A stretch of 64,000 nucleotides of DNA from Owenia fusiformis. Taxonomy: Eukaryota; Annelida; Polychaeta; Sabellida; Oweniidae. Shown one piece after another: positions 8,061 to 37,487 of this stretch; the first letter of the stretch is position 1; each line of letters begins with the position of its first letter. The notes beneath the pieces were generated by a model. The model had not been told where the DNA came from. It made no database searches and worked only from the letters and a program-made list of their open reading frames with translations. Position numbers and translations under genes: made by a program. The stretch covers positions 36,483,936 to 36,547,935 of the forward strand of contig CAIIXF020000006.1 of the NCBI GenBank assembly GCA_903813345.2, read 5' to 3'.

Positions 8061-10411
8061 ATATGACAGAATGTCGATCAAATAGTCAGATCGTATATTA
8101 GTCAATTCATGACATATTCCCCATTATAAGCAACAATGGCATGGTGCCTCTCGACCCAGAACTGGAAGATGTCAAATCCATCCATAGTCTAGGGAGAATT
8201 AGATTTGGAGCCCTTAAATTATTTGGCCCCCAACAATCTTTTGGGCCTACCAAGAGGGAGTATGCCCCCCCCCCCCAGATCCGCCAGTGTTAATACATAG
8301 TAAAAAGAGGACAAATAGGGCCTGTGTGCGGCACTTATAGATCTATGGAATACCACACATTTTTATTACATTTCTCAAAATGATTTTCAATTAAATTCCT
8401 CAATAAAAGGGGCTTGGTATAAAAGATTTCAAATGTCTAGAGAGTGACTAATTAAATATAATGCACAGAACACAAACAGAATAAACGTCAAATTGATTTT
8501 CCAGGATGGAAGTAATATTACATATTTTCTGTTAAGATTAAAATATATAGTTTGTCACATATTTAGCACATCCTTTTATTTTAAACCTTATCTTGCATTC
8601 TCTTATGTCAGTGATATATGGTAGTTACCATAATCGAAACTTATTTTTACAGTGGCCTTATATTATAAAATCTTTTATTTTGGCTTTAGATGGTCACATT
8701 TCAATTCGTGGAACTAATTAATTATCCATGAGACACGCGCTAGGATATTAACCACGTGAAAACAGACCTGTGATTGGTCAATTTGAGTTTAGCACTGTTA
8801 TATTTGAGAAATAAAGCAATCATAAAGCATTACATCATCGCTCTTCCACATGTATAGTTTAAAGATACTCATTAGTCATTATAGACAATCAATCAATCTG
8901 AACAACTTTGACCTTGTACAATCAAACTTTTGTACGAAGGCACTGCTATAAACTAAAGTGAACAGAATGACCCTATATCTTTTCAACACTTATTGCTAGC
9001 TTTTATATGCTATCCATGCTACCTTTCCTAAATTAAGGCGCCACTCTTTACTATGATGAAACACTAAAACTGGTTACTAATGGGTGTTAATTCATGAATT
9101 TTCTCTTTAAACTGTACCTACTGTGATTGACTGTACGGATCAATCAGATTGGCCCCTGCATGATCAGTAATGTCATACATAACGTATCGTATAATGTATT
9201 GTATCTTGAGGTTATTATGGTTTACTCAGTGTCATATTGTGTTAAACTTTCAAGCACTCAAACATTTTTAGTTAATGATTTTAAATGTGGTCAATTATAT
9301 TATACTTATGTAGGTGTCACGGGCGCAAATATGTACAAATAGTTAACTATGTATTAATGAAATAAAATTTGAAAAAACAAAAAACATAATTTCTAGTTTT
9401 GGTTTATTGTTTCCTTGGTAATCTCGGTGTAATTTTTGTGTAAACAAATAACAAAACATCTTAGAATTATGACAGGCCACATAATGACCAGTAGCAAGTC
9501 ACATGGGGGCCAACATATGTCATAAATCATTGAAATATTACTTATTACTTGTTAATGAGCTACCATCTATGTTAAATGAAACAGTTGCCACATTACTGAT
9601 CAGATGAAATGTTCAAATACATCCATTATTATAGAAAATGGAAGCCTTTAGGTTTAAATTACTATTTCAGTTGTCGTTTAACATATTGATCAGTATATCA
9701 GATTCTTATTGTAACTTTTCAATACAGATATGAATAGAATGAATGAATCTTTTGAATAGACTGACTTTTTTTTCTTTTAGAGCCTGCTTTTCCCCCTTGT
9801 CTACAGCTTCCATTTTAAAAAAACTTCTAAATAAGTATGTATGTATTATTTATTCAATCCGTCTCTATTTATTCAATCTGTCTCTATTTATTCAATCAAT
9901 CTCTATTGAGATGTGACAAGCCAAACTTTACATTCATTATTTTGTAGTTGACTGCATAGACAGGTCCCAAACTGCACTTAACACGTATGGCAACACACAA
10001 TCTTTATTGTTAACCTGTTATTGGGAATTTACACTTACTAAAAGTGTATATTTGTGTGTCTTTGAAAAGAAATAAAAGATAAACAAAAAACCAGTTTTAT
10101 TACTATGCTTGTTATTTATATTGCCTATGGTAATAATATTGGGTCAAAAGATCATTTTAAAAACACATAATACATGTTTTTCAATCACGAAAGATTATTT
10201 GAATCTAATAGAGACACTAGGCGTGAGCCGATTTGTTGCAAAGAAAAAATAAATTATGTATTTGACAAACATTTACTTATGATCTACTTGATAAGCAACA
10301 TACATATCAAAATGGAATCTTTAGCTAATTTTACTTAATTTAGCTATTGCTATTTTCAAGAAGATTCGAGTAGTAGAAGTAGGTGAATGATACAATTAAA
10401 CAAAATTGAAC
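8061..10411. other. Proximal 5' flank of gene A
   Basis: Non-coding by inspection. It starts with a C-run (about 8265-8277). From about 8705 to the exon it is nearly identical to 33197-34898 in module B; between 9127 and 10657 the offset stays at 24,487 with no indel. It probably holds the promoter and 5' UTR of the 2A-leader gene, but no clear TATA box or start site can be assigned. The ORF near 9127 begins at a TTG and is not supported. Confidence 0.5.
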
Positions 10412-10601
10412 ATGGGGAATTCTGCTCAGCAATGGAGAATGGCCATAGGGACTTTCGGTGGAGGCCAGAAAAATCAGACATTCTATTCATCATTCGTCAA
10501 ATCTCTAAAACAACTAGCATTAAGACTTAGGCTCATAAAACTGCTGCTGGTGAGAGCAGGAGTGGAGCAGAACCCCGGTCCACCAACCAATGATAAATCA
10601 G
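10412..10601 (+). CDS. Exon 1, copy A: 2A-like leader of the nucleotidyltransferase-TPR protein
   Basis: The ATG at 10412 has a strong Kozak context (A at -3, G at +4). The exon encodes 63 codons plus one base and ends at a donor (AAATCAG/GTAACT, 10602). Residues 24-48 form a basic amphipathic stretch with Leu-rich LRLRLIKLLLV, followed by AGVEQNPGP (residues 49-57). This matches the 2A ribosome-skipping signature except for Gly where the consensus has Asp before V-E. In 2A peptides the ribosome releases the chain between G and the final P, so a 56-residue leader and a separate downstream protein are predicted. The leftover G joins the AG of exon 2 (21679) to give Glu, keeping the frame. MGNS at the start weakly resembles an N-myristoylation site. 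Copy B encodes the same residues with one synonymous change seen. Exon assignment and skipping are inferred; no transcript was available. Confidence 0.75.
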
Positions 10602-11167
10602 GTAACTATAGAAAACAATTTTGTTGTACAATTTTTCTCATTTTTCTAAATTTTTAATAAATGGCCTTTTGCAGTACAAAAATGTCATTATCAAAATCTC
10701 AATTTTTTTAGATAAAAGCTTCTTTTAAAAGAGATGGCCTTCATTTCAAATATACGAAGGTCTCCACCAATTTTATAAACAGGCCTCATTTACCATTGAA
10801 ATGGATCTCGCAATGCAATGTGCGCTGTTGTTTCATGAGTATTCTCTTCAAGTTTGGATCGACTAACTTCAATAGTATTACCGTAGTTTTGAAATGATGA
10901 TGTTGAAATGATAACTGAAATAAATGCCATTTCCACAATTTCAAATTTTAATTTGCGCATGTACAGCACTGAGAGAGCACGTGCTTAAGATTGTTCACGT
11001 GATCACATCCTGTAATTTGATTGGACATCATATACTGGGGAATCCCCAAATACAATAGAATATGAAAGAATTATGGGAGCTACTCACTTCTTCTGATATT
11101 GGGTGTCCTGTGAAAATGTTCTACCTATTCACTGTTACCTTTTCACTGATGAGTTTCATCACTAGAG

Positions 11168-12277
11168 AGGTTAAGCTACACGTATAAATGCAAACCGTGA
11201 ACCTGAACGCGTAAGTCCACGCTCAAGTACACGTTTAGCTACACGTCTGAAACCATGTCAGTGGACGTGGAGCTATATTTATGTGGTGACTGTGTTTAAA
11301 GGTCATGTCTCTATGGTGTAATGGATAGCACTACCAAGTCGTGTCCGTTAGGCCTGGGTTCGAATCTACAGTAGTTGCATCAACACATTTTGTTTTTTTA
11401 TTTTTGCTGTATTTAATATTCAATGCACCCTCCATTACGATCTTCCCATGATCAAAAATAAATTCATCTAATTTTTAAAAATGAATATACTGTTTTTATT
11501 ATTACATTTTTATGTACACTAGTATCGTGTTGACCTATATTCAGCACTGCATTGATGAATGGGCCACTTATTAGGGCCAATATTCAATCATAAAGTGTAC
11601 AGGGGTAGAGATGCCAAACCAGGAAGTCTTTTTGTGTCTGTCAAAATCCATTTGTATCCTACACATCCCTACATCTTATCCAAATATGTTATTGATTAAT
11701 GAACATAACAGTATAATCTTTGGATTTACAAAGTTGTATGGCATTTCAAAAGTGTAAAAGTTGTTTTGAAGCATTTTTCTATAGCCATTTTCAAACCAAA
11801 TGTAGTGATAAGGCAATCGTAGGCCCTGGTTGTCATTTCATTTCGTTTAGTATACCTATTGTACTAAGCCCCGGGTATCAAATTGGCCCTACCTGTTGAT
11901 ATTGTACGGAATGAACAAACGATCACATTTGAAGTTGTCATTTACCCATTAAAATGTATTCTTATTTCCAATTAAGGATTGGGGTTTACCAATATAACAA
12001 GGAAGATTGTCTGTATCAAATATGGGCTCCAGGGCCATCCTAGAACATAGCTAAAATCAATCACGTAATGAGCGACGTGTAATCACTCATCTACACGTAA
12101 AAACCTGTAACTTTCATGCTTACCTGTAGAAAGTAGACTAAACTGACGTCATTTTCCTGCGCGCGCATAGAAGTAGAAGTACGCTGGCCCACAGGAAATA
12201 AACAAATCCGACGTCATTTATCTGCGCACGCATTGAAGTTCACGTTCAAGTTTTGTTAAATACGTGTAGCTTAACCT
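11168..12277. mobile_element. 1.1-kb TIR insertion specific to module A
   Basis: The ends are AGGTTAAGCTACACGTAT and its complement ATACGTGTAGCTTAACCT. Module B lacks the block at the equivalent place (about 35620). Near each end there are further ACGTG-rich motifs and a repeated TGACGTCATTTTCCTGCGCGC / CGACGTCATTTATCTGCGCAC pair around 12140-12235. It has no transposase ORF. It carries a tRNA-like segment. The target duplication is not clear. Confidence 0.75.
11307..11377 (+). pseudogene. tRNA-derived sequence (Pol III A and B boxes)
   Basis: TGGTGTAATGG fits the A box and GGTTCGAATC fits the B box, 37 nt apart by start positions, with a D-arm that still pairs (GTGT/GCAC). The anticodon and acceptor stems pair poorly, so this is a tRNA relic or SINE head rather than a working tRNA. 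A T-rich tract that could end Pol III transcription follows at about 11390. The D-arm resembles arginine tRNAs. Confidence 0.55.
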
Positions 12278-12837
12278 ATCTATTCACTCCAACTTATGCT
12301 CAACTGTCAATAAGCCCTCATGCAAACAAAGCAAATTGAGTCTAGAAAGAGATACCCTCTTAAGAAAGTTGGCATGTCTGAGTTCTGCATTTTTGTCATT
12401 ATTGGGCAAAATGTCCCAAAATATCAATGAAGCCATAAATCAATGGCTGATTATTCAGACAGGTTGAGGCCTGAAGGAGCTCCTTGATTTGGGGACTTAA
12501 ATATAATACAAAATGCTAACAATGGACTGTTTTCATTCTCTTAAGTTAATATGCGATATCACAAATTAAATGAAAAATGTTCTAATCATTTTGGATCATC
12601 CTGTACCTATTCAAAATTGTAAAATACTGAAATGTAAAGCAAGTACATGTACCATCTTTTTTATATGATCCTGAAATTCAATATAATGAAAAAGCAACTA
12701 ATTCAACATTTTTAGAATAAATAATTGTTTTTGGTGACATAAAAATCACAACCTGAAGCTATGGAATTATGACTGAATTTTCTTTAGCTTTCTTGAGATA
12801 GTGTTCAACGTTTGAAATTATAATAAGCATACATGTA
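12278..12837. other. Intron 1 backbone, non-coding
   Basis: Colinear with about 35630-36212 in module B with scattered substitutions. No exon or repeat is recognised. Confidence 0.5.
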
Positions 12838-14217
12838 CAGGGTGTCCCGAAAGTATGCCCCCCCCTAGGCAGACATATTCCAGTGTCCTCATAGTATATG
12901 TCATATATCATTTTAAAGCTTATCCAAAGTTACATTGATTTGCCAAGTATCATGGTTTAACTCCCAAATGGGAAAAAGTTAGTCATTTTAAAAGTTGGTG
13001 TTTTGTCAAAGTAAAGTTCAATTTTACACCGCATAACTAGTGAATGAGTCCCCCCTTGGCCATGTCAACAACAGCAATTATTTTCAGATATGACCTTAAA
13101 AGCCCTTCAAATAGGGATGTGGAATTTTGTAACCCTCTTAAAACCTGTTAAGGCACTTTAGAAAAGTTTCCTTAGAGTTTCAAACCTCACTGTTCTCTTT
13201 TTCCAACTTAATATCCATCTGACCCGATAAGCATTGCTGCTGTTAAGATGGCCCGGGAGGACATATTGACTTTGGATTTGGTGTAAAATTGAACTTAATT
13301 TTGACCAAACGCTAAATTTGGGTTTGTGTAAAAAACCGGGTGACCGGGTAACTGGGTAAACGGGTGACTGGGTACTTAACGTTCCTAGCAGGGTTAGGAA
13401 TTTTTTTTATTTATAACGTTGGATCTGGACGATACATGTACGTTATTTTCGACGTCACGTTTTGAGGTTACTTCACATCGTAAGAACATTTTGACAACGT
13501 TAACTTTTAACGTTAAAACGTAATGAACCGATTTAGTGAGAACATATTGACATCTTTGTAACGTTTCCTTAACTCACAAATATTTTGAAGCCATTTCCAC
13601 AATGTTGAAATTCAACCATCCATCGACGTTTTGATGAATATCTAAATAACTTCAGATCAATACAGTCCATGAACTTCATTATTGACGTCATGTTTTTTTC
13701 AGGTTATAACAACTTTCTTTTTATACCATCACTAAATGTCTCATGTTTACGTTGCCTCGATGTGTAAAGAACGAAAATGTGCAACTTCTAGGAACTTATA
13801 TGCTACTTATGAGCAACGTGACATGAACGTCACTGTTCGCTGGATCGTTCACTGTGCTCTGTCTCGTATCTCGTATAGGGTAAAAATATCGAACAGCAGT
13901 GCACTCGGTAGGCTAAGTCTGTCAAGTCAATTCGCTACTATATATCGGGGGAAATGTGGAACTTTGAAAGTTGGTAACCCTGCTAGGAACGTTAGGTACC
14001 CGGTCGACCAGGTACCCGGTTACCCGGTCACCCGGTTTTTTACACAAACCAGCTAAATTTTGAAATGCATGTAATTTTTTCACATTTGAGGGTTGAACCA
14101 TGATGCTTGGCGAATTAATGTAACTTTGGATAAGCTTTAAGATGATATATGACACATACTATGATGACACTGGTATATGTCTTTCTAGGGGGGGGGGCAT
14201 ACTTTCGGGACACCCTG
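12838..14217. mobile_element. Mariner-type MITE with a second element nested inside
   Basis: The ends CAGGGTGTCCCGAAAG and CTTTCGGGACACCCTG are flanked by TA (12836-12837, 14218-14219). The inverted termini extend for about 150 bp (PuPy-rich CCCCCCTAG block, TCATTTTAAAGCTTATCC block). Module B carries the same element at 36213-36847 without the 732-bp inner insert, so this MITE was in place before duplication. No transposase is present. Confidence 0.85.
13320..14051. mobile_element. Nested 732-bp TIR element with ACCGGGTGACC repeats
   Basis: Inserted in the MITE above and flanked by a 9-bp duplication GCTAAATTT (13311-13319 and 14052-14060). Module B has the single site ACTAAATTTTG. The TIRs of about 75 bp begin GGGTTTGTGTAAAAAACC on the left and contain iterated CCGGGTNAC motifs, with the complement at the right end. 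The 9-bp duplication suggests a Mutator-like affinity, but that is only an inference. The interior has many ACGT motifs and no convincing ORF. Confidence 0.85.
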
Positions 14218-14734
14218 TATATTTGCATTGATCGCTGCTATTTAAAGAAAGCTAATATGTTTGATCTAGGCATGCTTTCATGCCAAATGATTCAAAATTG
14301 CAGGGTCACCATGTCTTTCTGAAAGTTTACACTGCAATACATCATTTCAACATGTTCAAGGGGAGACAATCTTAGGTTTCATTTCAAGTGGACATATTTA
14401 TTAGGATTTCTCAAGATTAAATATTAACACACATATTTTTTCAAATCAATGAGGAAGCACAAAGGGTAATATTTTGAAAATAGCATAGTACCACTGATAG
14501 CAAGAAGGTGCTGAACCCATTTGAGATTTTAATAGTATAGGCATGCATCCACCTAAAAACTCATTTGCACAAACTTGGAACATGAGAAAAATCATAACAA
14601 GGCACAGGACGTGAACGAGATCACACCATCAAATAGGCAGACACTATGAACAAGGAAAACTGTTCTCCTATTATGTTTACAAATTTCAAGAACAAGAAAA
14701 CAAGATGACCGCCCAAAAGTTAATCAGCTCTAGT
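14218..14734. other. Intron 1 backbone and edge of the A-specific insert
   Basis: Positions 14218-14600 align with about 36850-37280 of module B. From about 14600 the sequence has no counterpart in B, and from about 14699 it matches the end of the 145-bp repeat unit found at 18026-18383. Confidence 0.6.
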
Positions 14735-15154
14735 TACTCTAGTAGCTCATGCTAGTTGAGTATGCACTTCTATGTCCAGAGATTTTCTCTTCAGAAATCA
14801 TCTATGTGAAGGTCATTGATCAATTTTGGCTTGGTAACATATTTGCCACTGAAGGCGAAATAGGTCAAATGGCCACGCCCTTTTTTACGCGAATTCTCCC
14901 CCCCCCCATTTTTGCATCTCCGGAACCGTTGGACATAGAAGGTTGTGAGACCACTCAAAATGTCCGGAATGGCCACATTATAGGGGGTCAATAATACATA
15001 TGTATTTAAAAAAGTCAATGGTTCTCAAGATATTTGCCAAAAACTGATTTTAGCATGTTACGCACAACAGTTTTCATCTAACTTGCATCATTTAAGACTG
15101 AATCCGCAGCCTCTATCTAGTCAGATCAGCGAAGGAAACAAACTTTTTTGGTTG

Positions 15155-15230
15155 TTGAGTTGGCCAAGAGGTCTTAGGTGAATGGGTACCCTAAACCACG
15201 AGGTTGCGAGTTTGAGACACGTGTGCTCCG
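15155..15230 (+). pseudogene. tRNA-like relic in the left arm (leucine/serine-like A box)
   Basis: TGGCCAAGAGG resembles the A box of leucine/serine tRNAs. It is followed by GGTTGCGAGTTTGAGAC, which resembles a decayed B box. A second copy of the B-box half (CCACGAGGTTGTGAGTTTGAG) lies at about 15321-15345. The complement is in the right arm. It probably represents a SINE or tRNA fragment captured in the element; it is not functional. Confidence 0.35.
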
Positions 15231-15437
15231 TATGTTCATTCTTTTATGAGTACCATATCTAGTATCTACAAGGAATGCTGATGTATTATGAGTATTGAAT
15301 ATCGATTGAGTTTAATTATAAACCACGAGGTTGTGAGTTTGAGACACATGTGCTCCTTGTGTTCATTCTTTAATGAGTACTAGTATCTACAACTAGTTAT
15401 CACTAGTTTTCATGTTATGTGTGGCTATCAATTGAGT

Positions 15438-16565
15438 TTATTTATGCGGATTTCTACACTTTGTGCCTTTACTACATCCACAAAACACAACACATTTTAT
15501 GTCCATTGCTCTGCAGGTAAATGTCTTGGAACTAATGCAGGATGTTGGGCATTTGCATGGAGGAGGTAGGTCATCAGGCCTGCATGGAACTGGCAGTATT
15601 ACAGGTGTACAATCATCTGTTGCTTTATAGCCATACTGGCATGGATCTGGTGTGATGATTTCAGGAATTAGAGCTTGTAACCACATCTTGCACTGCAGAT
15701 ATGCCCGCTTTATGTGTTCCTGTAGAGTTGATAAGCAGCACACAAGTTGGATAAAATCAATGTCTTTCTTTGAGTTGTGGTACTGTTCCCACCGATATTC
15801 ATCAAATGTGGAACAGTCTGTCTTCTTCAAACCGGATACAAAGAACTTCTCTGCATTCTTAATCATTTCTGGTGTAAGTTCCTCGACACCAAACCCTTCC
15901 AAAAGCGAGAGATCCATGGCTGATTTCATACCAGATAGTTTTGGACCAACTTTGCTGGTACTGTCACACCCGCTAAGTGCATGAATGGCTGGGAGACACG
16001 ATACCAAATTGTTGTCCAGTTGATCAACTAACAGGTGGACTGGAACAGTTTTCTTGTTTTTACAGTTACCAAGCTTTACAAACAGCTTCTGTAGTTGCCA
16101 GGTCTTTTTGATGTGGAAGATGAGGTTGACAAAGACATCTGTGTCAGGTGAGTCAACCAAGACTGATTGAACCCCATGATTCACAACACCATCATTGAAA
16201 TGGAACATGATTCTATCATCAGCTTCTTCTTGATTGCTTGAGAGCTCAACAATCTGCGTTTCAGTTCCAGCTTTCAGTCTTCTACATTCACCCCCATGTA
16301 CTCCTCCAAAGATAATTTCCTTTTCTGACATAACATTCCGTAGCATCCACTTGAATACATACTCTTGCAACCTTACTTTGTTCATCATTGAGCTCCAGAA
16401 CATATCAAGATCAACAGGGAGTTTCTGATTGTCAGACCTAATAGAGATAGTGATTTCTTCTAAAGAACTTCTCTGCGAACGTTCCATTTGCTTGATTGAT
16501 GATTTTTGATACACATCAAAAATAACATCTATTCTTGTGGAGTTGGAACCTTTAGCCAGGATGAT
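15438..16565 (-). CDS. PIN/FEN1-like nuclease-domain protein of the inverted-repeat element (5' incomplete)
   Basis: An open frame of about 376 codons on the minus strand ends at 15438. In protein order it shows an EADDRIMFH motif, SPDTDVF, and HALSGCDSTSKVGPK. These line up with the acidic EAEA, EDMD and GCDY...GPK motifs of XPG/FEN1-type PIN nucleases. A Cys-rich tail of about 45 residues follows (CKCPTSC, CVVFCGCSKGTKC). The frame stays open further upstream to 16622, but that part is antisense to the right arm and is probably not genuine; the true start or upstream exons are not seen. Multi-copy proteins with this motif set occur in invertebrate genomes. Nuclease activity is inferred from motifs only. 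Another view is that it is a passenger fragment captured by a foldback element. Confidence 0.6.
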   Translation of the reverse strand: MILAKGSNSTRIDVIFDVYQKSSIKQMERSQRSSLEEITISIRSDNQKLPVDLDMFWSSMMNKVRLQEYVFKWMLRNVMSEKEIIFGGVHGGECRRLKAGTETQIVELSSNQEEADDRIMFHFNDGVVNHGVQSVLVDSPDTDVFVNLIFHIKKTWQLQKLFVKLGNCKNKKTVPVHLLVDQLDNNLVSCLPAIHALSGCDSTSKVGPKLSGMKSAMDLSLLEGFGVEELTPEMIKNAEKFFVSGLKKTDCSTFDEYRWEQYHNSKKDIDFIQLVCCLSTLQEHIKRAYLQCKMWLQALIPEIITPDPCQYGYKATDDCTPVILPVPCRPDDLPPPCKCPTSCISSKTFTCRAMDIKCVVFCGCSKGTKCRNPHK

Positions 16566-17323
16566 GCTGATGATAGAATCATGTTCCATATCAATGATGG
16601 TGTTGTGAATCATGGGGTTCAATCAGTCTTGGTTGACTCACCTGACACAGATGTCTTTGTCAACCTCATCTTCCACATCAAAAAGACCTGGCAACTACAG
16701 AAGCTGTTTGTAAAGCTTGGTAACTGTAAAAACAAGAAAACTGTTCCAGTCCACCTGTTAGTTGATCAACTGGACAACAATTTGGTATCGTGTCTCCCAG
16801 CCATTCATGCACTTAGCGGGTGTGACAGTACCAGCAAAGTTGGTCCAAAACTATCTGGTATGAAATCAGCCATGGATCTCTCGCTTTTGGAAGGGTTTGG
16901 TGTCGAGGAACTTACACCAGAAATGATTAAGAATGCAGAGAAGTTCCTTGTATCCGGTTTGAAGAAGACAGACTGTTCCACATTTGATGAATATCGGTGG
17001 GAACAGTACCACAACTCAAAGAAAGACTTGATTTTATCCAACTTGTGTGCTGCTTATCAACTCTACAGGAACACATAAAGCGGGCATATCTGCAGTGCAA
17101 GATGTGGTTACAAGCTCCAATTCCTGAAGTCATCACACCAGATCCATGCCAGTATGGCTATAAAGCAACAGTTCCATGCAGGCCTGATGACCTACCTCCT
17201 CCATGCAAATGCCCAACAACCTGCATTAGTTCCAAGACATTTACCTGCAGAGCAATGGACATAAAATGTGTTGTGTTTTGTGGATGTAGTAAAGGCACAA
17301 AGTGTAGAAATCTGCATAAATAA
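16566..17323 (+). pseudogene. Inverted, broken second copy of the PIN/FEN1-like C-terminal region
   Basis: The complement of 15438-16223. It lacks the N-terminal part because the unique centre reads only into the minus-strand copy. A 1-nt deletion at about 17027 (KKDIDFIQ versus KKDLILSN) shifts the frame. A 27-nt in-frame deletion at about 17170 removes DDCTPVILP. The Cys-rich tail and stop remain recognisable to 17323. It diverges from the left arm by only scattered changes, so the arms were recently identical. Confidence 0.8.
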
Positions 17324-18025
17324 ACTCAATTGATAGCCACACATAACATGAAAACTAGTGATAACTAGTTGTAGATACTAGTACTCATTAAAGAATGAAC
17401 ACAAGGAGCACATGTGTCTCAAACTCACAACCTCGTGGTTTATAATTAAACTCAATCGATATTCAATACTCATAATACATCAGCATTCCTTGTAGATACT
17501 AGATATGGTACTCATAAAAGAATGAACATACGGAGCACACGTGTCTCAAACTCGCAACCTCGTGGTTTAGGGTACCCATTCACCTAAGACCTCTTGGCCA
17601 ATTCAACAACCAAAAAAGTTTGTTTCCTTCGCTGATCTGACTAGATAAAGGCTGCGGATTCAGTCTTAAATGATGCAGGATAGATGAAAACTGTTGTGCG
17701 TAACATGCTAAAATCAGTTTTTGGCAAATATCTTGAGAACCATTGACTTTTTTAAATACATATGTATTATTGACCCCCTATAATGTGGCCATTCCGGACA
17801 TTTTGAGTGGTCTCACAACCTTCTATGTCCAACGGTTCCGGAGATGCAAAAATGGGGGGGGGAGAATTCGCGTAAAAAAGGGCGTGGCCATTTGACCTAT
17901 TTCGCCTTCAGTGGCAAATATGTTACCAAGCCAAAATTGATCAATGACCTTCACATAGATGATTTCTGAAGAGAAAATCTCTGGACATAGAAGTGCATAC
18001 TCAACTAGCATGAGCTACTAGAGTA

Positions 18026-18383
18026 AGTACTTGATATCCTTTATCATTTGTGTAAATTTGAAGGAAATCCGATGAGCGGTTTTCCTGAAATGGCGATGAC
18101 AAGATTTTTCGAAAAACCTTCAAAATGGCCACCAGAAAACAAGATGGCCGCCCAAAAGTTAATCAGCTCTAGTACTTGATATCCTCTATCATGTGTGTAA
18201 ATTTGATAGAAATCCGATGAGCGGATTTTCTGAAATGGTGATGACAAGATTTTTCCGAAAAATCTTCAAAATGGCTGCCAGAAAACAAGATGGCCGCCCA
18301 AAAGTTAATCAGCTCTAGTACTTGATATTCTCTATCATTTGTGTAAATTTGAAGGAAATCCAATGAGCGGTTTTCCTGAAATG
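18026..18383. repeat. 145-bp tandem repeats (left part)
   Basis: Units of about 145 bp start AGTACTTGATAT at 18026, 18171 and 18317. Each contains GATGAGCGG, GATGACAAGATTTTT and CAAGATGGCCGCC motifs. The third unit is interrupted at 18384 by another element and resumes at 21265. Part of a unit also lies left of 14735, so the inverted-repeat element inserted into the same array. Confidence 0.85.
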
Positions 18384-19149
18384 CAGAGCTGTCAAGTGTC
18401 CCGCGAATGGCGGGATTATCCCGCGAATTTGATCAAAATTTGGCGAATTCGCGTGTCCCGCAATGTCCCGCGAAGTCCCGCAAATGTCGGCTTTGACCTC
18501 CGCGAATTTTCAAAATTGTAACAATCCCCGAGGCTAAATAATTGCGATTATCTTGTGATATACAGTGTAAGAAGCTAAACCCCGATAGGGGTCAACCCAG
18601 TTGTCCGAAACCCAATTCTCCGAATCCGATCAGTTTTCCGAAACCCAGTTGTCCGAAACCCAGTTGTTCGAAAATAAGTTAGCCCACGAAAGTTCATGGG
18701 TAACTTGAGAACTAGAAAATACAACCAAATACTTTTTTGAACGTACAATAGCAATATTTCTCACCTAACGTCTTCATAGTTTTAGGAACGTATTTTAAAT
18801 GCATGATAGCGAAATATATCAAAATACTATATCTACCTAATGTAGTTATGTAGTGTTCACAAAGTTTTGAAACATATTTTATCTAGATACTTCAGAAATT
18901 AACTTATCCAATAAATTACTTTACTAGTTCTAGTATCTTGCATGACTCATTCATAAGAATTCTTTAATATTCTACCTCATTCCCAATATGTCCTCAGACA
19001 GGCAAGAAATTGAAGTCACACCCCTTTGTTTGCGTGACAGAATATGCCACGCAAAATACTTATACGCACTTTCTCTGATTATTGTAAAGCAAATACAGTT
19101 TAGGAGAAGAAAATAATAAATAAACGTTACGCGGTAAACACGATACAAA

Positions 19150-19745
19150 AATATGTCATATTCCGCAACGAATATGGCATATTCACTTGCGGTGTATGAC
19201 AGATTCACCTGCGGTATATGGCATACACACTAACCAATGAGAACGTGATACGGAAGTACGCAATTGTCAATTGCATCGATTGAACGAACAAGTTTAACTT
19301 TATAAATTATTATATTGATTACTGAATCGACAGTACTGTGTATCGAATATATTAACTTATGCAGAAGTATCAGTCACCAATCTCACGTAATAAACTTACT
19401 CAATCAATCCAGAATTCATATATTAGTACTCGACGCACTAACTATATTGGTAGTCCAGCGTAGTTTTACATTTAGAGTCGATTCTCGCAACCAATCACAC
19501 CAAGGCTTTCTGCATCACGTTTTCACCTGCGGTATATGTCATATTCACCTGCGGTATATGGCATATTCCGCAACTGAGTATGACATATTCCGCAGTTGAG
19601 TATCGGATATTCACTGAAATCAATGTATCGCATATTCACTGCGGAATATCGCATACTCACCTGCGGAATATGCCATATACCGCAGGTGAGTATGGCATAT
19701 TCACCCGTATCACAAATACCGCGCAACCATGAATGTATGCCATAT
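19150..19745. repeat. Clustered palindromic motif (ATATTCACCTGCGGTATATG)
   Basis: At least ten copies in both orientations of an approximately 20-bp motif combining CACCTGCGG with ATATGGCATA or ATATGCCATA, in two clusters (19150-19230 and 19525-19745). The pairs can form nested hairpins. Small ORFs across it are a by-product of the repeat. Confidence 0.75.
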
Positions 19746-20113
19746 ACCGCGTAACAATAAAAAACAAATGCCGGAAACGAATGCCGAAAAATAAATCCCA
19801 AGTGATTAGTTTTAGAATGTTTTGTTCTTTTACGATTTGATAAGAGACAGAGACTAAGAAATTAAATACGACGAAATATTTTGACAACGTAATATTGTAT
19901 ACTGTTTTATTTTTAAAGTTCCATGCATTAACTTCTTTTATCTGTTTCAAAATGTTTCATTTTATTTTGCCTATAAAAAAGAGATCGAAGAAGTTAAGAT
20001 AAACTGTTCCGTAACATATATTGTGTTTTAATAACCGTTTTTAGGATCACAATGTAAAATAAATCCCCCGTTCCTGCCATTCTAGTAGCACCATGTAATG
20101 GGTGCAATTCTAA

Positions 20114-20135
20114 GTGAGAGAGAGAGAGAGAGAGA
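20114..20135. repeat. (GA)n microsatellite
   Basis: About ten GA dinucleotides in a row, inside the nested element. Confidence 0.9.
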
Positions 20136-21264
20136 TCTATAAACATCAGAGTGTGTCCATCCCATTAATTTGGCCAAATACATGGCATGAAACTGGCGTA
20201 AGCTTAACTTGGTCCGTCCCCTTTCTCTGGTAAATTATGACTATATTTTTCGGAGTAATGGGTTTCGGACAACTGGGGTGTATTCGGACCCCTATATGAA
20301 AAGGTACATTTTAATATATAACACAATGGGGGGTAAATGTTTCATAGTTGGTCACGAACGCCATAAGTGCAAAGTATTGTTCAGAATTTTTTGAATTTCG
20401 TTTGGATTACGGTACTCACAAGTGTGGTTTCTTGATAGTTTAAAGGTGCAACAATGAGTGGAGACTATATTCAATGATCATGGAACAGTGTCAAAATATA
20501 TTTAAGTTTGCCTGTTTCTTCAAGACTAACATATACTTTAAAATTATTAGTTCCAAAGAAACCCCCTGGATGAACATTATTTCAGCCGATATTCCTCAAA
20601 ATGGTGCATCCTAAAAATCTATAAGTGGGACTCCCTTTATAAAAGCTTTGAACTGAATTTACACTTCTTAATGCTGAAATTGATAGTTTATCCATACATT
20701 TTAAGAAAATAGGTATGTGAAAGAAGATGTTAAGCCAAATGTTGCCTTGATAGCTATGAAAAAGTAAAAGAATTTGATTTTTCTCTCTTCAGGCCTTGTT
20801 GCCCCTTTAATAACATTTCTATGCGTATTGTGTGGAATTGTGTTGACGTTTACTTAAGTTAAGTGCATTATATTTGATAAATCAGTATCTGAAAGTTTGA
20901 TTTGAGTACTTTTAAATTAAGCCCCAATCACGCAAATCCCTTGAATGTCCTGCGACATCCCACAAATTTAGGTGGATGTTTCGCCAATCCTGCAAATTTA
21001 AAGCACTTTGTCTAAAAAAGGTTGCCCCTCTATGAAGTCTTTGGTGGTTACCCTGTTAACTGTCCCGCAATTAGCGTGTTTGTCCCTCGAATGGTCCCGC
21101 GAAATCGATCGAAATTCGACCTATTGGCGCAATCACGCAAATTCCTTAAATGTCCCGCAAAATCCCGCTAATTTAGGCGGATGTCCCGCAAAATCCCACG
21201 AATTTTTGGCACTGGGTCTAAAAAATCTGTCCCGCGAGAAAATCTTTGGGGGTTGACAGTACTG

Positions 21265-21505
21265 GAAATGGCGATGACAAGATTTTTCGAAAAACCTTCA
21301 AAATGGCCGCCAGAAAACAAGATGGCCACCCAAAAGTTAATCAGCTCTAGTACTTCATAGGCTCTATCATCTCTGCGAATTTGGAGAAAATCTGATGAGC
21401 AGTTTTCCTCAAACGGCGATGACAAAAAGCGGGACGATCACGATCACGACCACGATCACGACCACGACCAGTATGACGACTATATCCCACCGATGGTGTG
21501 ATAAA
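21265..21505. repeat. 145-bp repeats resume; GATCACGACCAC microsatellite
   Basis: Positions 21265-21425 continue the interrupted 145-bp units. Positions 21434-21470 are an imperfect (GATCAC/GACCAC)n tract. Sequence from about 21506 (TATTCATATCCTGACC) again matches the intron of copy B at about 37281. Confidence 0.8.
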
Positions 21506-21678
21506 AAGTATTCATATCCTGACCAAATTCAGTCTAAATTGTGAAATCAAGAATTTGGCACCCATTTGATTCCATGAACCCTATAAATAAGCATCTTTAA
21601 ACATCTATAACATTACTTATTTTTAAGCATGAATATATGAAATATAATTTAATAAGAAATTAAACATTAATCTTTCAG

Positions 21679-24600
21679 AGGTAACGGAAGAGATGTATGA
21701 ACTTGGTTGCAAAATAAAAGCATGTGACCAACAAATTGAATTGAAAGAACAGGCAGACCTCATGTGTCAACTTGGACAAGAGTATATCAGATCAGCAGAG
21801 ACATCTGATATCTGGTATGAACACTACGTTTGGTCCTGTGCACTATATAATGCAGCCAAATGTCGAATTAAGAAATTGATTAGAAAACAAACTGATGGCA
21901 TAAACACAGCTCTTAAAGATGACTTGGAACACACTGACAAACAACTCCAGCTTATAGAAAGTAACTTTGTGAAGAAGTGCCGAGCTGCAAATCATAGCGA
22001 ACTATCTACAGAGGCTGCAACACAGAAGTATACAGACACACTTGAAAATATACGAGAGTACTCAAACACCACCGTAAATGACATCATCGAAAAGTACATG
22101 GTAGTTGATGATGTCACCACAGAGATGAAAGAAGAAGATGAAGACAACACAATAAAACACAGCAAGGTGTTTTATAATGGACTAACACAACAGCTTTTAG
22201 ATTTTTATAAGTCTATTATCAATGACTCTATTTCTGTTTTAGGACACCCCGATTGTAAGTTTGCATTCTTAGCACTTGGTTCTCTATCCCGAAAAGAGGT
22301 CACTGCTTATTCAGATATTGAGTGGGCAATACTGTTTGATCCCTTAGATAAACCAGTCAATCAAATCAAAACACAATTGCGTATGATAGCCTATTACATG
22401 CATTTGAAGGTGCTTAACCTTGGGGAAACATTGCTAAACTGCTTAGACATACCAGTTCTGACAGATTACAACAAACACCTACCCCCTGACATGAAAGACA
22501 ATGACTTTTATGACAAAGCAACTACTAGGGGGATTTCCTTTGACGGGACACAACCTTGGGCTAGCAAAACAGCTATTGGTAGAAAAACAGGAGTAGATCC
22601 CAATAAACCTCCCAGACTTGAACTTATCATGACTGTGGATGAGATGAGCAAGTTTCAGTTCACAGATGAATCAATCAAAGAGGGTTATCACCTTAGTGAC
22701 GTTCTCATGACATCAACACTCATAACTGGAGAACTTGCCTTATGGAAGGAATACAATGACAAAGTACATTCCATATTATCATCACCATCTACAACTAATC
22801 CAGACATCACTATAGGAAGAGAACGAGCAGTAAAAACACTGGAGAAAGACTTAGAAAAATACAGTGAAAACCCCTTGTCATCAGAATCATTCACTCAGAA
22901 AATGCATACAAAGCATGACATATACAGATTTGCCACAATCACTATAAATATTCTGAAACTCATGCATGGTTGCACATCATTTGCTCCTCTAGATGTGTTA
23001 GAGGAATTGAGATGGAAGGGTATCCTTTCTGAAGGGGCAACAAAAGATCTACAAATCATGGTTTGTAGTGTAATCAATCTTAGACACATGGTCTATGGAA
23101 AGTATAAGCAACAAAAGGAATTCATATCATTCTTACCAAGTGACTCTCAAGATGATGAAACAACAGAAGTGATGCCAGTCAGAAGTTTTACAGCGATATT
23201 ACGATTTTTTAACACATTCATGCCCTGGTGTGAATTTCTCAAATCAAACTTAAATGTAAGTGGTGCCTGGGCATATAGTAAGAGATATGTTGGAAACAAT
23301 GAAGTGAAAGCGCAATTATATAAGAACACTTTTTTCTTCAAGAGGGCAATGCATGCTTATCAAACAGAGTTAAAAACACTTCGAACCCTAGATGCAGGAG
23401 AGCATGAGGTGAAAATAGCTTCCATACAGGATGCAATAGGTTCACTGTATGAGTCACAAGGGAATTACTCAGATGCACTCTTCCATCATAACGACAGTCT
23501 GAAAATAAGCAGAAAAATCAATGATGAAAGTGGGGTCTCTAGATCACTTAACAAGATAGGTATTGTGTATAAAGGCATGGGAGAACTGACTAAAGCACTT
23601 GAATATCATCAAGAAAATCTGAAAATTGAAAGACTAATACACATAGACAGTCCCCACCCAGATGTCGCCTCATCACTCAACAACATAGGTAATGTGTATA
23701 TAGACATGGGAGATCTGACTAAAGCACTTGAATATCATCATAAAGGTCTGACAATGTATAGACTTATACACAAAGACAGTCCCCACCCAGATGTTGCTGC
23801 ATCACTTAACAACATAGGTTTTGTGTATAATGACATGGGAGAATTGACTAAAGCAGTTGAATGTCATCAAGAAAGTCTGACAATGTTAAGACTAATACAC
23901 AAAGACAGTCCCCACCCAGATGTTGCTGGCTCACTTAACAACATAGGTTTTGTGTATAATGACATGGGAGAATTGACTAAAGCAGTTGAATATCATCAAG
24001 AAAGTCTGACAATGAGAAGACTAATACACAAAGACAGTCCCCACCCAGATGTTGCTGCATCACTTAACAACATAGGTAGTGTGTATAAAGACATGGGAGA
24101 TCTGACTAAAGCACTTGAGTATCATCAAGAAAGTCTGACAATGAAAAGACTAATACACAAAGACAGTCCCCACCCAGATGTTGCTAGCTCACTTAACAAC
24201 ATAGGTCTTGTGTATAAAGACATGGGAGATCTGACTAAAGCACTTGAGTATCATCATAAAGGTCTGACAATGAGAAGACTAATACACAAAGACAGTCCCC
24301 ACCCAGATGTTGCTAGCTCACTTGGCAACATAGGTCTTGTGTATAAAGACATGGGAGATCTGACTAAAGCACTTGAGTATCATCAAGAAAGTCTGACAAT
24401 GAGAAGACTAATACACAAACACAGTCCCCACCCAGATGTTGCAATGTCACTTAACAACATAGGTAATGTGTATAATGACATGGGAGATCTGACTAAAGCA
24501 CTTGAGTATCATCAAGAAAGTCTGACAATGAGAAGACTAATACACAAACACAGTCCCCACCCAGATGTTGCTGGCTCACTTAACAACATAGGTAATGTGT

Positions 24601-25808
24601 ATAATGACATGGGAGATCTGACTAAAGCACTTGAGTATCATCAAGAAAGTCTGACAATGAAAAGACTAATAAACAAGGACAGCCCTCATCAAAGTGTTGC
24701 AACCTCACTTAACAACATAGGTCTTGTGTATAAGGACATGGGAGATCTGACTAAAGCACTTGAATATCATCAAGAGAGTCTGAAAATGGAAAGACTAATA
24801 CACAAAGACAGTCCCCATCCAGATGTTGCTTCATCACTTTACAACATAGGTAATGTGTATGGAAACATGGGAAATCTGACTAAAGCACTTGAGTATCATC
24901 AAGAAAGTCTGACAATGAGAAGACTAATACACAAACACAGTCCCCACCCAGATGTTGCTGGCTCACTTAACAACATAGGTAATGTGTATGATGACATGGG
25001 AGATCTGACTAAAGCACTTGAATATCATCAAGAAAGTCTGACAATGAGAAGACTAATACACAAAGGCAGTCCCCACCCAGATGTTGCAATGTCACTTAAC
25101 AACATAGGTAATGTGTATAAGGACATGGGAGATCTGACTAAAGCACTTGAGTATCATCATGAAGGTCTGACAATGAAAAGACTAATACACAAAGACAGTC
25201 CCCACTCAGCTGTTGCAACCTCACTTAACAACATAGGTCTTGTGTATAAAGACATGGGAGAACTGACTAAAGCACTTGAATATCATCAAGAAAGTCTGAC
25301 AATGAAAAGACTAATACACAAAGGCAGTCCCCACCCAGATGTTGCAATGTCACTTAACAACATAGGTAATGTGTATATTAAGATGGGAGATCTGACTAAA
25401 GCACTTGAATATCATCAAGAAAGTCTGACAATGAGAAGACTAATACACAAAGGCAGTCCCCACCCAGATGTTGCAATGTCACTTAACAACATAGGTAATG
25501 TGTATATTAAGATGGGAGATCTGACTAAAGCACTTGAATATCATCAAGAATGTCTGACAATGGAAAGACTAATCTACAAAAACAATCCTCACCCAAATGT
25601 AGCTAAATCATTGCTAAACATAGGTATCACACATGAGAACATGAAGGAGCATACAGAAGCACTGACTTATTACTCTGAAGCTCTAAGCATTGCTCATCAG
25701 TATGGAGGAGATTCACACCCTGATTACATAAAAGCATTCAATTGGATTGATGAGTGCAAGAATAAATTAAAATTGACTGAGAAGATTAAATCATGTACTC
25801 TAATGTGA
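21679..25808 (+). CDS. Exon 2, copy A: nucleotidyltransferase + KLC-type TPR array protein
   Basis: The acceptor TTTCAG/AG at 21678 gives the in-phase join; the first full codons read VTEEMYELG. With exon 1 the product is 1439 aa. Residues below count from the Met at 21693. Residues 1-170 are a Cys/Lys-rich helical region. At 196-210, LGS..R.E...YSDIE fits the DUF294-type nucleotidyltransferase signature (GS then D-x-E), a possible metal-binding site. About 405-490 is a helical segment like the domain that follows DUF294. About 575-1350 holds around 18 TPRs, 16 of them near-identical 43-residue units (G-VY-DMG-LTKALEYHQESL-M-RLIHKDSPHPDVA-SLNNI), like kinesin light chain or nephrocystin-type repeats. 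The C-terminus is KSCTLM, a possible CaaX prenylation box. NTase-TPR proteins in invertebrates are often expanded and suspected in innate sensing; the substrate and role here are unknown. Confidence 0.8.
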
Positions 25809-33196: not shown

Positions 33197-34898
33197 TTCG
33201 TGGAACTAATTAATTATCCATGAGACACGCGCTAGGATATTAACCACGTGAAAACAGACCTGTGATTGGTCAATTTGAGTTTAGCACTGTTATATTTGAG
33301 AAATAAAGCAATCATAAAGCATTACATCATCGCTCTTCCACATGTATAGTTTAAAGATACTCATTAGTCATTATAGACAATCAATCAATCTGAACAACTT
33401 TGACCTTGTACAATCAAACTTTTGTACGAAGGCACTGCTATAAAGTGAACAGAATGACCCTATATCTTTTCAACACTTTTTGCCAGCTTTTATATGCTAT
33501 CCATGCTACCTTTCTTAAATTAAGGCGCCACTCTTTACGATGATGAAACACTAAAACTGGTTACTAATGGGTGTTAATTCATGAATTTTCTCTTTAAATT
33601 GTACCTACTGTGATTGACTGTACGGATCAATCAGATTGGCCCCTGCATGATCAGTAATGTCATACATAACGTATCGTATAATGTATTGTATCTTGAGGTT
33701 ATTATGGTTTACTCAGTGTCATATTGTGTTAAACTTTCAAGCACTCAAAAATTTTTAGTTAATGATTTTAAATGTGGTCAATTATATTATACTTATGTAG
33801 GTGTCACGGGCGCAAATATGTACAAATATTTAACTATGTATTAATGAAATAAAATTTGAAAAAACAAAAAACATAATTTCTAGTTTTGGTTTATTGTTTC
33901 CTTGGTAATCTCGGTGTAATTTTTGTGTAAACAAATAACAAAACATCTTAGAATTATGACAGGCCACATAATGACCAGTAGCAAGTCAGATGGGGGCCAA
34001 CATATGTCATAAATCATTGAAATACTACTTATTACTTGTTAATGAGCTACCATCTATGTTAAATGAAACAGTTGCCACATTACTGATCAGATGAAATGTT
34101 CAAATACATCCATTATTATAGAAAATGAAAGCCTTTAGGTTTAAATTACTATTTCAGTTGTCGTTTAATATATTGATCAGTATATCAGATTCTTATTGTA
34201 ACTTATCAATACAGATATGAATAGAATGAATGAATCTTTTGAATAGACTGACTTTTTTTTCTTTTAGAGCCTGCTTTTCCCCCTTGTCTACAGCTTCCAT
34301 TTTAAAAAAACTTCTAAATAAGTATGTATGTATTATTTATTCAATCCGTCTCTATTTATTCAATCTGTCTCTATTTATTCAATCAATCTCTATTGAGATG
34401 TGACAAGCCAAACTTTACATTCATTATTTTGTAGTTGACTGCATAGACAGGTCCCAAACTGCACTTAACACGTATGGCAACACACAATCTTTATTGTTAA
34501 CCTGTTATTGGGAATTTACACTTACTAAAAGTGTATATTTGTGTGTCTTTGAAAAGAAATAAAAGATAAACAAAAAACCAGTTTTATTACTATGCTTGTT
34601 ATTTATATTGCCTATGGTAATAATATTGGGTCAAAAGATCATTTTAAAAACACATAATACATGTTTTTCAATCACGAAAGATTATTTGAATCTAATAGAG
34701 ACACTAGGCGTGAGCCGATTTGTTGCAAAGAAAAAATAAATTATGTATTTGACAAACATTTACTTATGATCTACTTGATAAGCAACATACATATCAAAAT
34801 GGAATCTTTAGCTAATTTTACTTAATTTAGCTATTGCTATTTTGAAGAAGATTCGAGTAGTAGAAGTAGGTGAATGATACAATTAAACAAAATTGAAC
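33197..34898. other. Proximal 5' flank of gene B
   Basis: Near-identical to module A 8705-10411. Presumed promoter and 5' UTR; no defined element can be named. Confidence 0.5.
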
Positions 34899-35088
34899 AT
34901 GGGGAATTCTGCTCAGCAATGGAGAATGGCCATAGGGACTTTCGGTGGAGGCCAGAAAAATCAGACATTCTATTCATCATTCGTCAAATCTCTAAAACAA
35001 CTAGCATTAAGACTTAGGCTAATAAAACTGCTGCTGGTGAGAGCAGGAGTGGAGCAGAACCCCGGTCCACCAACCAATGATAAATCAG
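34899..35088 (+). CDS. Exon 1, copy B: 2A-like leader
   Basis: The same 63 codons plus one base as copy A, with the same Kozak context, the same AGVEQNPGP motif at residues 49-57 and the same donor (AAATCAG/GTAACT at 35089). Only a synonymous CTC to CTA change is seen, so the leader is unchanged at protein level while exon 2 has many replacements. Joining to 37488 is in phase (G + AG). Confidence 0.75.
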
Positions 35089-37487
35089 GTAACTATAGAA
35101 AACAATTTTGTTGTACAATTTTTCTCATTTTTCTAAATTTTTAATAAATGGCCTTTTGCAGTACAAAAATGTCATTATCAAAATCTCAATTTTTTTAGAT
35201 AAAAGCTTCTTTTAAAAGAGATGGCCTTCATTTCAAATATACGAAGGTCTCCACCAATTTTATAAACAGGCCTCATTTACCATTGAAATGGATCTCGCAA
35301 TGCAATGTGCGCTGTTGTTTCATGAGTATTCTCTTCAAGTTTGGATCGACTAACTTCAATAGTATTACCGTAGTTTTGAAATGATGATGTTGAAATGATA
35401 ACTGAAATAAATGCCATTTCCACAATTTCAAATTTTAATTTGCGCATGTACAGCACTGAGAGAGCACGTGCTTAAGATTGTTCACGTGATCACATCCTGT
35501 AATTTGATTGGACATCATATACTGGGAATCTCCAAATACAATAGAATATGAAAGAATTATGGGAGGTACTCACTTCTTCTGATATTAGATGTCCTGTGAA
35601 AATGTTCTATATTTTCACTGATGATATTTATCATTCACTCCAACTTATGCTCAACTGTCAATAAGCCCTCATGCAAACAAAGCAAATTGGGTTGGGTCTA
35701 GAAAGAGATACCCTCATAAGAAAGTTTGCATGTCTGAGTTCTGCATTTTTGTCATTATTGGGCAAAATGTCCCAAATTATCAATAAAGCCATAAATCAAT
35801 GGCTGATTATTCAGACAGGTTGAGGCCTGAAGAAGCTCCTTGATTTGGCGACTTAAATATAATACAAAATGCTAACAATGGACTGTTCTTTTATTCTCTT
35901 AAGTAAATATGCGATATCACAAGTTGTTTTATGACGAAAAATGTTCTAATTATTTTGGATCATCCTGTACATATTCAAAAATGTAAAATACTGAAATGTC
36001 AAGCAAGTACATGAAACATCTTCTTTATATGATCCTGAAATTCAATATAATGAAAATGCAACAAGTTCAACATTTTTAGAAAAAATAATTGATTTTGGTG
36101 ACATAAAAATCACAACCTGAAGCTATGGAATAACATCTAAATTTTAAGTGAATTTTCTTTAGCTTTCTTGTGATAGTGTTCAACGTTTGAAATTATAATA
36201 AACATACATGTACAGGGTATCCCGAAAGTATCCCCCCCTAGGCAGACATATTCCAGTGTCCTCAAAGTATGTGTCAAATATCATTTTAAACCTTATCCAA
36301 AGTTACATTGATTTGCCAAGTATCATGGTTTAACTCCCAAATGGGAAAAAGTTAGTCATTTTAAAAGTTAGTGTTTTGTCAAAATAAAGTTCAATTTTAC
36401 ACCGTATAACTAGTGAATGAACCCCCCTTGGCCATGTCAACAGCAGCAATTATTTTCAGATATGACCTTAAAAGCCCTTCAAATAGGGGTGTGGAATTTT
36501 ATAACCCTCTTAAAACTTGTTAAGGCACTTTAGAAAAGTTTCCTTACAGTTTGTAACCTCACTGTTTTCTTTTTCCAACTCAATATCCATCTGACCCGAT
36601 AAGCGTTGCTGCTGTTAAGATGGCCCGGGAGGACATATTGACTAGTGATTTGGTTTAAAATTGAACTTAATTTTGACCAAACACTAAATTTTGAAATGCC
36701 TGTAATTTTTTCACATTTGAAGGTTGAACCATGATGCTTGGCGAATTGATGTAACTTTGGATACGCTTTAAGATGATATATGACACATACTTTGAGGACA
36801 CTGGTATATGTCTTCCTAGGGGGGGGGCATACTTTCAAGACACCCTGTATATTTGCATTGAACTCTCTGCTATTAAAAGAAAGTTTATATTTGATGTAGG
36901 CATGCCGAATGATTCAAAATTGCAAGGTCATCCTGTCTTTCTGAAAGTTTACACAGCAATACATCATTTCAACATGTTCAAGGGCAGACAATCTTAGGTT
37001 TCATTTCAAGTGGACATATTTATCAGGACCCCTTACTAATGATGTATTACTGAACTTCTCAAGATTAAATATTAACTCACAAAGGGTAATATTTTGAAAA
37101 TAGCATAGTACCACTGATCTCATCCAGCAAGTTGGTGCTGCACCCATTTGAGATTTTAAAAGTAGGCATGCACCCACTTGAAAATCCATTTAATCCTGCA
37201 ATATTTCAACTTATGATGGAAATTTTAGATGCATGCTGTATTTGTAACCCTCTTGAATAATGAGAAAAATTATGAAACATATTCATATCCTGACCAAATT
37301 CAGTCTAAATTCAGAAATCAAGAATTTTGTACCCACTTGAGACAAAATCCTGGAGATAACACTGAATAAAATTATACCATGAATCCTAGTAAATAAGCAT
37401 TTTCGAAAATCTATCAAATTACTTATTTTCTAACATGATTATATGAAACTGTATAGTTTAATAAGAAATCGAACATTAATCTTTCAG
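35089..37487 (+). other. Intron 1 of gene B (2.4 kb)
   Basis: GTAACT at 35089 to TTTCAG at 37487. It includes the TA-flanked MITE at 36213-36847. The rest aligns with parts of the copy A intron. It lacks the A-specific insertions at 11168, 13320 and 14600-21500. Confidence 0.7.
36213..36847. mobile_element. Mariner-type MITE, module B copy
   Basis: 635 bp, ends CAGGGTATCCCGAAAG and CTTTCAAGACACCCTG, TA at 36211-36212 and 36848-36849. This is the orthologous copy of 12838-14217 without the nested element. Confidence 0.85.

Follow-up and report, generated by a model that had tools for sequence, protein, structure and literature searches.

The 64,000-nucleotide stretch of Owenia fusiformis (Annelida) DNA analysed here, referred to as the window (contig CAIIXF020000006.1 of assembly GCA_903813345.2, positions 36,483,936 to 36,547,935 of the forward strand), carries two copies of a gene whose second exon encodes a nucleotidyltransferase-tetratricopeptide repeat (TPR) protein and whose short first exon ends in the NPGP of a 2A, or StopGo, ribosome-skipping sequence. 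We consider it highly probable that both belong to a host gene family in which the first exon is a bipartite StopGo leader, predicted to free a small peptide from the nucleotidyltransferase-TPR protein.

In copy 1, on the plus strand as are all gene features described below, exon 1 (10412..10601) encodes a 57-residue leader to NPGP, plus six codons and one base, and ends at a phase-1 donor at 10602 (leader peptide MGNSAQQWRMAIGTFGGGQKNQTFYSSFVKSLKQLALRLRLIKLLLVRAGVEQNPGP, then the codons PTNDKS and one base, then gtaact). The encoded peptide can be written MGNSAQQWRMAIGTF...LLLVRAGVEQNPG/P, the slash marking the predicted break, and its ATG is preceded by an in-frame stop, with four codons between. 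The leader consists of an N block, MGNSAQQWRMAIGTF (10412..10456), which follows the family pattern MGxSxxQWRxAIGxF, and of a 2A/StopGo block, RLRLIKLLLVRAGVEQNPGP, formed by its last 20 codons (10523..10582), in which the break is predicted between a glycine (ending at 10579) and a proline (10580-10582). Intron 1 (10602..21678) spans 11 kb and contains repeats; the acceptor, ctttcag/AGGTAACG, lies at 21679, and exon 2 (21679..25808) encodes a GlnE-like nucleotidyltransferase and a TPR array, the frame being maintained to the TGA that ends at 25808. The initial annotation had exon 1 end in AGVEQNPGP, with a phase-1 donor in frame with the acceptor at 21679, and indeed the joined sequence (10412-10601 and 21679-25808) is open to the stop; the predicted lengths, 56 residues (through the G of NPG) and 1383 residues if the Gly-Pro bond is skipped, were recomputed from the joined frame and correspond to a fused length of 1439. 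The tested stretch of copy 1 was not found among the 76 proteins retrieved.

Copy 2 comprises exon 1 (34899..35088; one base different from copy 1 in 190, with the NPGP codons at 35058-35069), a 2.4 kb intron 1 (35089..37487) and exon 2 (37488..40822; the split codon, 1110 codons and a stop). Its joined product, of 1174 residues, is letter-for-letter identical to a deposited Owenia fusiformis protein (P0001). This protein presumably derives from the published Owenia gene set based on RNA sequencing (RNA-seq), which was built with RNA-seq and Portcullis junctions and has RNA-seq support for 99.29% of its transcripts (PMC9977687). A six-frame scan of the window found NPGP at two sites only, 10571 in copy 1 and 35058 in copy 2, and GVEQNPGP in both copies fits the StopGo core (D/G/C/N)(V/I)ExNPGP.

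The block around exon 1 of copy 1 (8705..11134) is 98.9% identical, over 2.4 kb, to its partner around exon 1 of copy 2 (33197..35620); adjoining matches reach 92.5-93.5% and exon 2 90.8%. The leader region has probably been exchanged, copied or homogenised recently between the two copies. Since the exon-1 regions are near-identical, a comparison of these two copies alone tells little about selection.

A family of leader exons in the Owenia genome

We searched the 498 Mb assembly with the leader, a 20-residue 2A block and a 20-residue N block as queries, and compiled from the three search lists 59 places, corresponding to 57 host leaders and two retrotransposon places (L088/L089), which are counted apart. 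Six places (C12:8479954, C5:15113607, C5:21842326, C6:9592870, C3:22129550 and C7:1869574) were dropped before counting, as they held the 2A part or the N part only, were weak, or lay within long unrelated frames, and extra partial N-block copies on C8 were left out of the leader counts. A nucleotidyltransferase-TPR protein behind a 2A-type leader exon, pointed out in the initial annotation for one gene, thus recurs: of the 57 compiled exons, 56 have an uninterrupted frame from the first codon up to NPGP (once DPGP), and these 56 leaders range from 54 to 215 residues. At L065, L067 and L069 (C8 near 34.26, 34.41 and 34.59 Mb), the intact leader exon is preceded by a tandem series of incomplete copies of the N part, most of them broken.

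For 52 of the 57 leader exons, the same strand carries a nucleotidyltransferase domain no more than 60 kb downstream, whereas about 0.5% per leader would be expected by chance for 84 kb. Conversely, a leader lies upstream of 51 of the 64 nucleotidyltransferase places of at least 160 bits. A few of these matches are pieces (C10:2666030 and C10:2665838 represent a single place), and two on C5 are separated by 2.3 kb. The leaders without a downstream nucleotidyltransferase are L039, L060, L077, L087 and the broken L064; no family domain was found in the 7 kb after L039, L060 and L077, of which two are partly runs of N. The leader is carried by 10 of the 17 retrieved Owenia family proteins (P0001-P0016 and P0021), in P0002 by its 2A half only, and in P0005 it ends in DPGP. 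The proteins behind the leaders are nucleotidyltransferase-TPR proteins, sometimes with OTU.

Both blocks are strongly conserved among the 56 open leaders. In the 2A block, G at p12 and P-G-P are present in 56, N in 55 and E in 49, while the two residues ahead of V/I are G or A and then G, and an L stands eleven residues before the last P, in all 56; in the N block, G2, R9 and G13 are invariant and Q7, W8 and I12 are found in 55. The core (D/G/C/N)(V/I)ExNPGP is strictly fitted by 47 leaders, and the nine misfits comprise six with Q and one with H in place of E, one with DPGP and one with L in place of V/I. The conserved residues are encoded by two (N, E) up to six (R9) different codons, and at N, P, G and P 2, 4, 4 and 4 synonymous codons are in use.

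Tree parsimony on the 54 distinct haplotypes of these leaders, which set silent against replacement changes, gave 47 silent changes to 1 replacement for the NPGP codons (rate ratio 0.008), 43 to 9 for the G-V/I-E codons (0.069), 131 to 109 for the N block (0.21) and 166 to 125 for the remainder of the hydrophobic block (0.29), with 26 replacements at the x between E and N of the core. The best-scoring donor after NPGP, at a distance of 7-40 nt, is in phase 1 in 53 of the 56 leaders, a purine occupies position -3 of the donor in all of them, and an in-frame stop lies at most 60 nt upstream of the leader start in 50. These patterns indicate that the leader exon is real and is selected for its peptide, and that NPGP is, as read from the codons, under very strong purifying selection in the leader family.

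The motif is not restricted to these genes. The DNA pattern for [V/I/M]ExNPGP gave 163 matches in the genome, vs 8 for the reversed pattern; among the 30 sites fetched from the 100 places listed and sorted by eye, six were host leaders, 19 ran into an endonuclease-like start, (L/V)F(S/T/C)N(I/V)NS, which resembles the arrangement of known retrotransposon 2A sequences, and five were neither.

Predicted output and competing explanations

Li et al. (2026, PMC12846837) give the StopGo core as (D/G/C/N)(V/I)ExNPGP and define motif 5 as a stretch rich in L whose end, at p12, is (A/G/S)G. The tract responsible for skipping has been identified as the 20-30 residues that occupy the exit tunnel (PMC11512398). 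Ribosome skipping at the NPGP of the window leader is predicted and judged very likely. The ribosome would make the 56-residue leader (MGNS...AGVEQNPG), the Gly-Pro bond would fail to form and the leader would be released, after which translation would resume at the proline and yield a nucleotidyltransferase-TPR protein of its own that begins with proline; a small fraction would remain fused to the leader. The most likely purpose would be for a single mRNA to supply both a small leader peptide and a cytosolic enzyme.

In long leaders up to about 195 residues separate the N block from NPGP, which puts the block beyond exit-tunnel reach, so that it cannot be part of the skipping signal there. 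Because this distant block is still conserved, the leader peptide probably counts as a gene product itself, with a role of its own; in short leaders the N block may contribute to skipping.

Several points weigh against this interpretation. The join of copy 1 is predicted from its sequence, the deposited product being that of copy 2. One leader (L059, counted among the 56 open ones) lacks its ATG, and another (L064, included in the 57, not in the 56) is broken by stops. Thirteen of the 64 strong nucleotidyltransferase places have no leader within 80 kb; no leader was found in the approximately 2 kb upstream of each of eight leaderless nucleotidyltransferase loci, and upstream of one of these places, L097, the single NPGP lies in a reading frame interrupted by stops and is not accompanied by the core. 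Seven of the 17 retrieved Owenia proteins begin without a leader: two of them, P0013 and P0015, fall in branches that lack it, and P0003, P0007, P0008, P0010 and P0016, which start downstream of the leader, may be incomplete models or reflect alternative starts. Natural variants of the signal exist, namely GGVQLNPGP in six leaders, GGVHLNPGP in one and DPGP in one (L076). The parsimony and leader counts are not independent, because the tree was made from the counted codons and the leaders are related, and the donor score is a simple scheme of our own making. Moreover, Li et al. (2026, PMC12846837) assayed four motifs, and motif 5 was not one of them.

Among the competing explanations, we examined dual targeting of the kind described for sea urchin NLR leaders, where the skipped product would be cytosolic and the unskipped one would be carried to the secretory path or membrane; for the Owenia family we regard this as rather unlikely. 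That a 2A leader can also act as a signal, as noted in the initial annotation, has been demonstrated experimentally for one sea urchin leader by Roulston et al. (PMC4981915), and hydropathy would suit many Owenia leaders, with a 15-residue stretch of mean hydropathy of at least 2.0 in 38 of 56 and an uncharged run of at least 12 residues in 41 of 56. In the window leader, however, the stretch before NPGP, LALRLRLIKLLLVRA, has a mean Kyte-Doolittle value of 1.43, four basic residues and a longest uncharged run of 7. The two destinations proposed earlier for the window gene are not supported as far as hydropathy can tell, this basic stretch being unlike a signal-peptide core.

The variant leaders bear on the same question. 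Seven leaders (L060-L063 and L085-L087) combine GGVQLNPGP (six) or GGVHLNPGP (L062) with very hydrophobic stretches (2.97-3.29), among the most hydrophobic of the family, and the E14Q change was 56% or 26% active in earlier tests cited by Li et al. (PMC12846837), both points in favour of dual targeting. Nevertheless, the canonical leaders L049 (3.06) and L080 (3.10) equal the Q leaders in hydrophobicity, the variant with H at p14 was more than 95% active in its natural viral context (PMC12846837), and the link between Q/H and hydrophobicity may be a single event, because the Q/H leaders look like one branch. The Q/H leaders suggest themselves as a natural test of weaker skipping.

The leaders were also considered as N-myristoylation signals, for which a PS00008-like pattern requires G2 and a small residue at position 6; this candidate was rejected, as only 7 of the 56 leaders fit and the window leader has Q at position 6.

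It is very improbable, in our judgement, that the N-terminal proline on the enzyme is itself the point of the arrangement, setting its stability via a Pro/N-degron reader. Each skipped product would start with Pro, and a possible destabilising effect of an N-terminal Pro is mentioned by Li et al. (PMC12846837), but the residues after Pro vary between leader groups and the conserved N block would be left unexplained. We have similarly strong doubts that NPGP is kept for a turn or as a binding motif in an unskipped N-terminal extension. Skipping of the leaders is, on our side, inferred from sequence; however, in keeping with the StopGo consensus, G-(V/I)-E and N-P-G-P are kept behind a stretch rich in L and x is free, and the core recurs in retrotransposons of the Owenia genome. 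Finally, that the exon is a retrotransposon remnant or part of another transcript, accidentally joined, is hardly credible, and what is seen across the family already contradicts it. The APE-type elements of this genome do frequently contain 2A sequences and one element carries the leader, but the joined product of copy 2 is identical to a deposited protein, 52 of 57 leaders are linked to nucleotidyltransferase exons, the donor is in phase 1 in 53 of 56, and no endonuclease open reading frame (ORF) follows the NPGP of the window.

Origin of the leader, surrounding features and known systems

In the nucleotidyltransferase tree, which carries a long-branch warning, P0015, the group formed by P0013, L092-L094 and L099, and the Branchiostoma relative P0020 fall outside the leader-bearing proteins. 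Of two further leaderless pairs, which stand beside or among the leader-bearing proteins, the pair L095 and L098 takes an unresolved place (fork 82/80) and the pair L096 and L097 stands beside the leader-bearing P0012 (98/95). The simplest reading would be that the leader was gained once in the family in the Owenia line, was copied along, and was lost in a few members. No PGP was found in P0020 (Branchiostoma lanceolatum).

The leader also occurs on a mobile element. At L088-L091 (C6:4956180-4956599 and C8:4736039-4736458), ORF1 starts with an MGxSxxQWRxxIG leader and CSGDVEMNPGP, followed by a coiled coil; the next ORF encodes an endonuclease domain (PF03372). Across the 140 residues that were compared, two copies do not differ, and a third matches them exactly from residue 6 to residue 140. 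We call the element non-LTR-type, and L1-like is a label only, as the reverse transcriptase lies outside the stretch read. A profile built from 44 distinct host leaders of at most 100 residues scored the element ORF1 at 38.3 bits and two zinc-finger proteins at 50.1 (P0019) and 39.9 bits (P0070), whereas 1000 shuffles each of the first 130 residues gave at most 8.0 bits and the other 2A elements of the genome at most 31.4. In database searches alone the two zinc-finger proteins were marginal (E 4.1 with a chimeric query, E 1.1 with an alignment query). The chimeric leader query returned four matches among 441 candidates, three known paralogs and P0019; the alignment query returned 59 proteins, most of them apparently TPR matches, of which P0020, P0021 and P0070 were useful. 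P0070, named zinc finger protein 407, is from the thrips Frankliniella fusca, on a contig of 7.9 Mb, and is 34% identical to P0019 over their length. The body of P0019 has no match in the Owenia genome, its five matches all being to the leader part (residue 1 to 61-111).

That a retrotransposon ORF1 and zinc-finger proteins have the second block in common suggests that 2A leaders can move in cassette form between host genes and mobile elements. We tentatively envisage, as a possibility we would not yet favour, that the leader is a self-contained, transferable mini-gene, in which a free linker joins a conserved head (MGxSxxQWRxAIGxF) to a StopGo tail that uncouples it from the protein behind it. 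Such a mini-gene, found in at least two phyla on mobile elements as well as on host genes, would have been recruited and multiplied in Owenia with the adenylyltransferase-TPR family, the freed peptide acting in trans, for example as the enzyme's membrane or partner peptide. If this were true, the series of intact, GGVQLNPGP and DPGP leaders would tune the amount of peptide freed. A viral origin of the leader was tried as well and set aside: a scan of viral_contigs with seven leaders gave ten stretches with the core pattern, none of them a relative by tblastn, a result that tells little because only the core served as pattern.

As to the downstream enzyme, Pfam identified in the window protein DUF294 (22.1 bits, cut-off 21) and TPR families, and did not find NACHT or LRR. 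The nucleotidyltransferase core that served as genome query (22257..22778) holds GSLSRKEVTAYSDIE, and a GlnE/DrrA-like nucleotidyltransferase fold, among the families listed in the fold search, is predicted for this domain. The active-site motif of such enzymes is G-x11-D-x-D; here G200, S201, D212 and E214 are invariant in 19 sequences, the last acid being E instead of D. Compared with GlnE (glutamine synthetase adenylyltransferase) and the adenylyltransferase domain of DrrA, the identity is 10-15%, D-x-E replaces D-x-D and a TPR array is attached. The TPR array of copy 1 (23544..25605) consists of 16 units of 129 nt with 90% matches. The arrays of the two copies (23544-25605 and 39351-40811) are both built of 129-nt units about 90% alike and differ in unit number, which presumably reflects fast turnover of what would be the recognition part.

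Other features of the window include a 1.5 kb inverted repeat, 97% alike, in intron 1 of copy 1 (14734-18026), with a 394-residue frame that has no Pfam match, a piece of a Mariner-like transposase (helix-turn-helix domain of Mos1 type) on the minus strand (28623-29324), and a minisatellite (57485-64000; 70 copies of 93-nt units) with long open stretches in several frames, which resembles a protein repeat yet is tandem DNA.

The initial annotation mentioned neither the second leader block nor how large the family is, nor the leader on a retrotransposon. In the open-licence literature we found no account of the bipartite leader, of 2A leaders on this enzyme family or in this phylum, or of their sharing with a retrotransposon ORF1; the survey of Rao et al. 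(2025, Cell Rep 44:115822) may list some of the sequences.

N-terminal 2A leaders on host genes as such are already known from sea urchin NLRs: according to Roulston et al. (2016, PMC4981915), the Strongylocentrotus purpuratus leaders are of 26 residues, stand on NACHT/LRR proteins and were found with the key D(V/I)ExNPGP. As in that system, the Owenia 2A lies at or near the N-terminus in a large host gene family, and many paralogs are hydrophobic before the core. In contrast, the Owenia leaders have 54-215 residues, G at p12 in all 56 and a second conserved block at their start, and they precede a nucleotidyltransferase-TPR protein (sometimes OTU) in the phylum Annelida.

APE-type non-LTR retrotransposons reportedly carry 2A sequences as well, as Odon et al. 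are said to have described in 2013. The Owenia sequences resemble these in that NPGP is found in element proteins and that 19 of the 30 fetched sites run into an endonuclease-like start; they differ in that the window leader is a separate spliced host exon joining a nucleotidyltransferase-TPR protein and has G at p12, a position occupied by D in L088-L091, the element that shares the N block.

StopGo is described as common in RNA viruses but no more than rare in cellular genes, and a near-unchanged StopGo signal in about 50 host copies is unusual for an animal gene family. The family includes natural variants expected to be weak or dead in skipping. With some 50 host leaders and an NPGP ratio near 0.008, cellular StopGo is therefore open to study by evolution plus assay. 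The Owenia leaders share with viral StopGo sequences (PMC12846837) the core (D/G/C/N)(V/I)ExNPGP and, like motif 5, a stretch rich in L that closes with (A/G)G; they differ from viral sequences in being cellular, N-terminal and part of a spliced multigene family.

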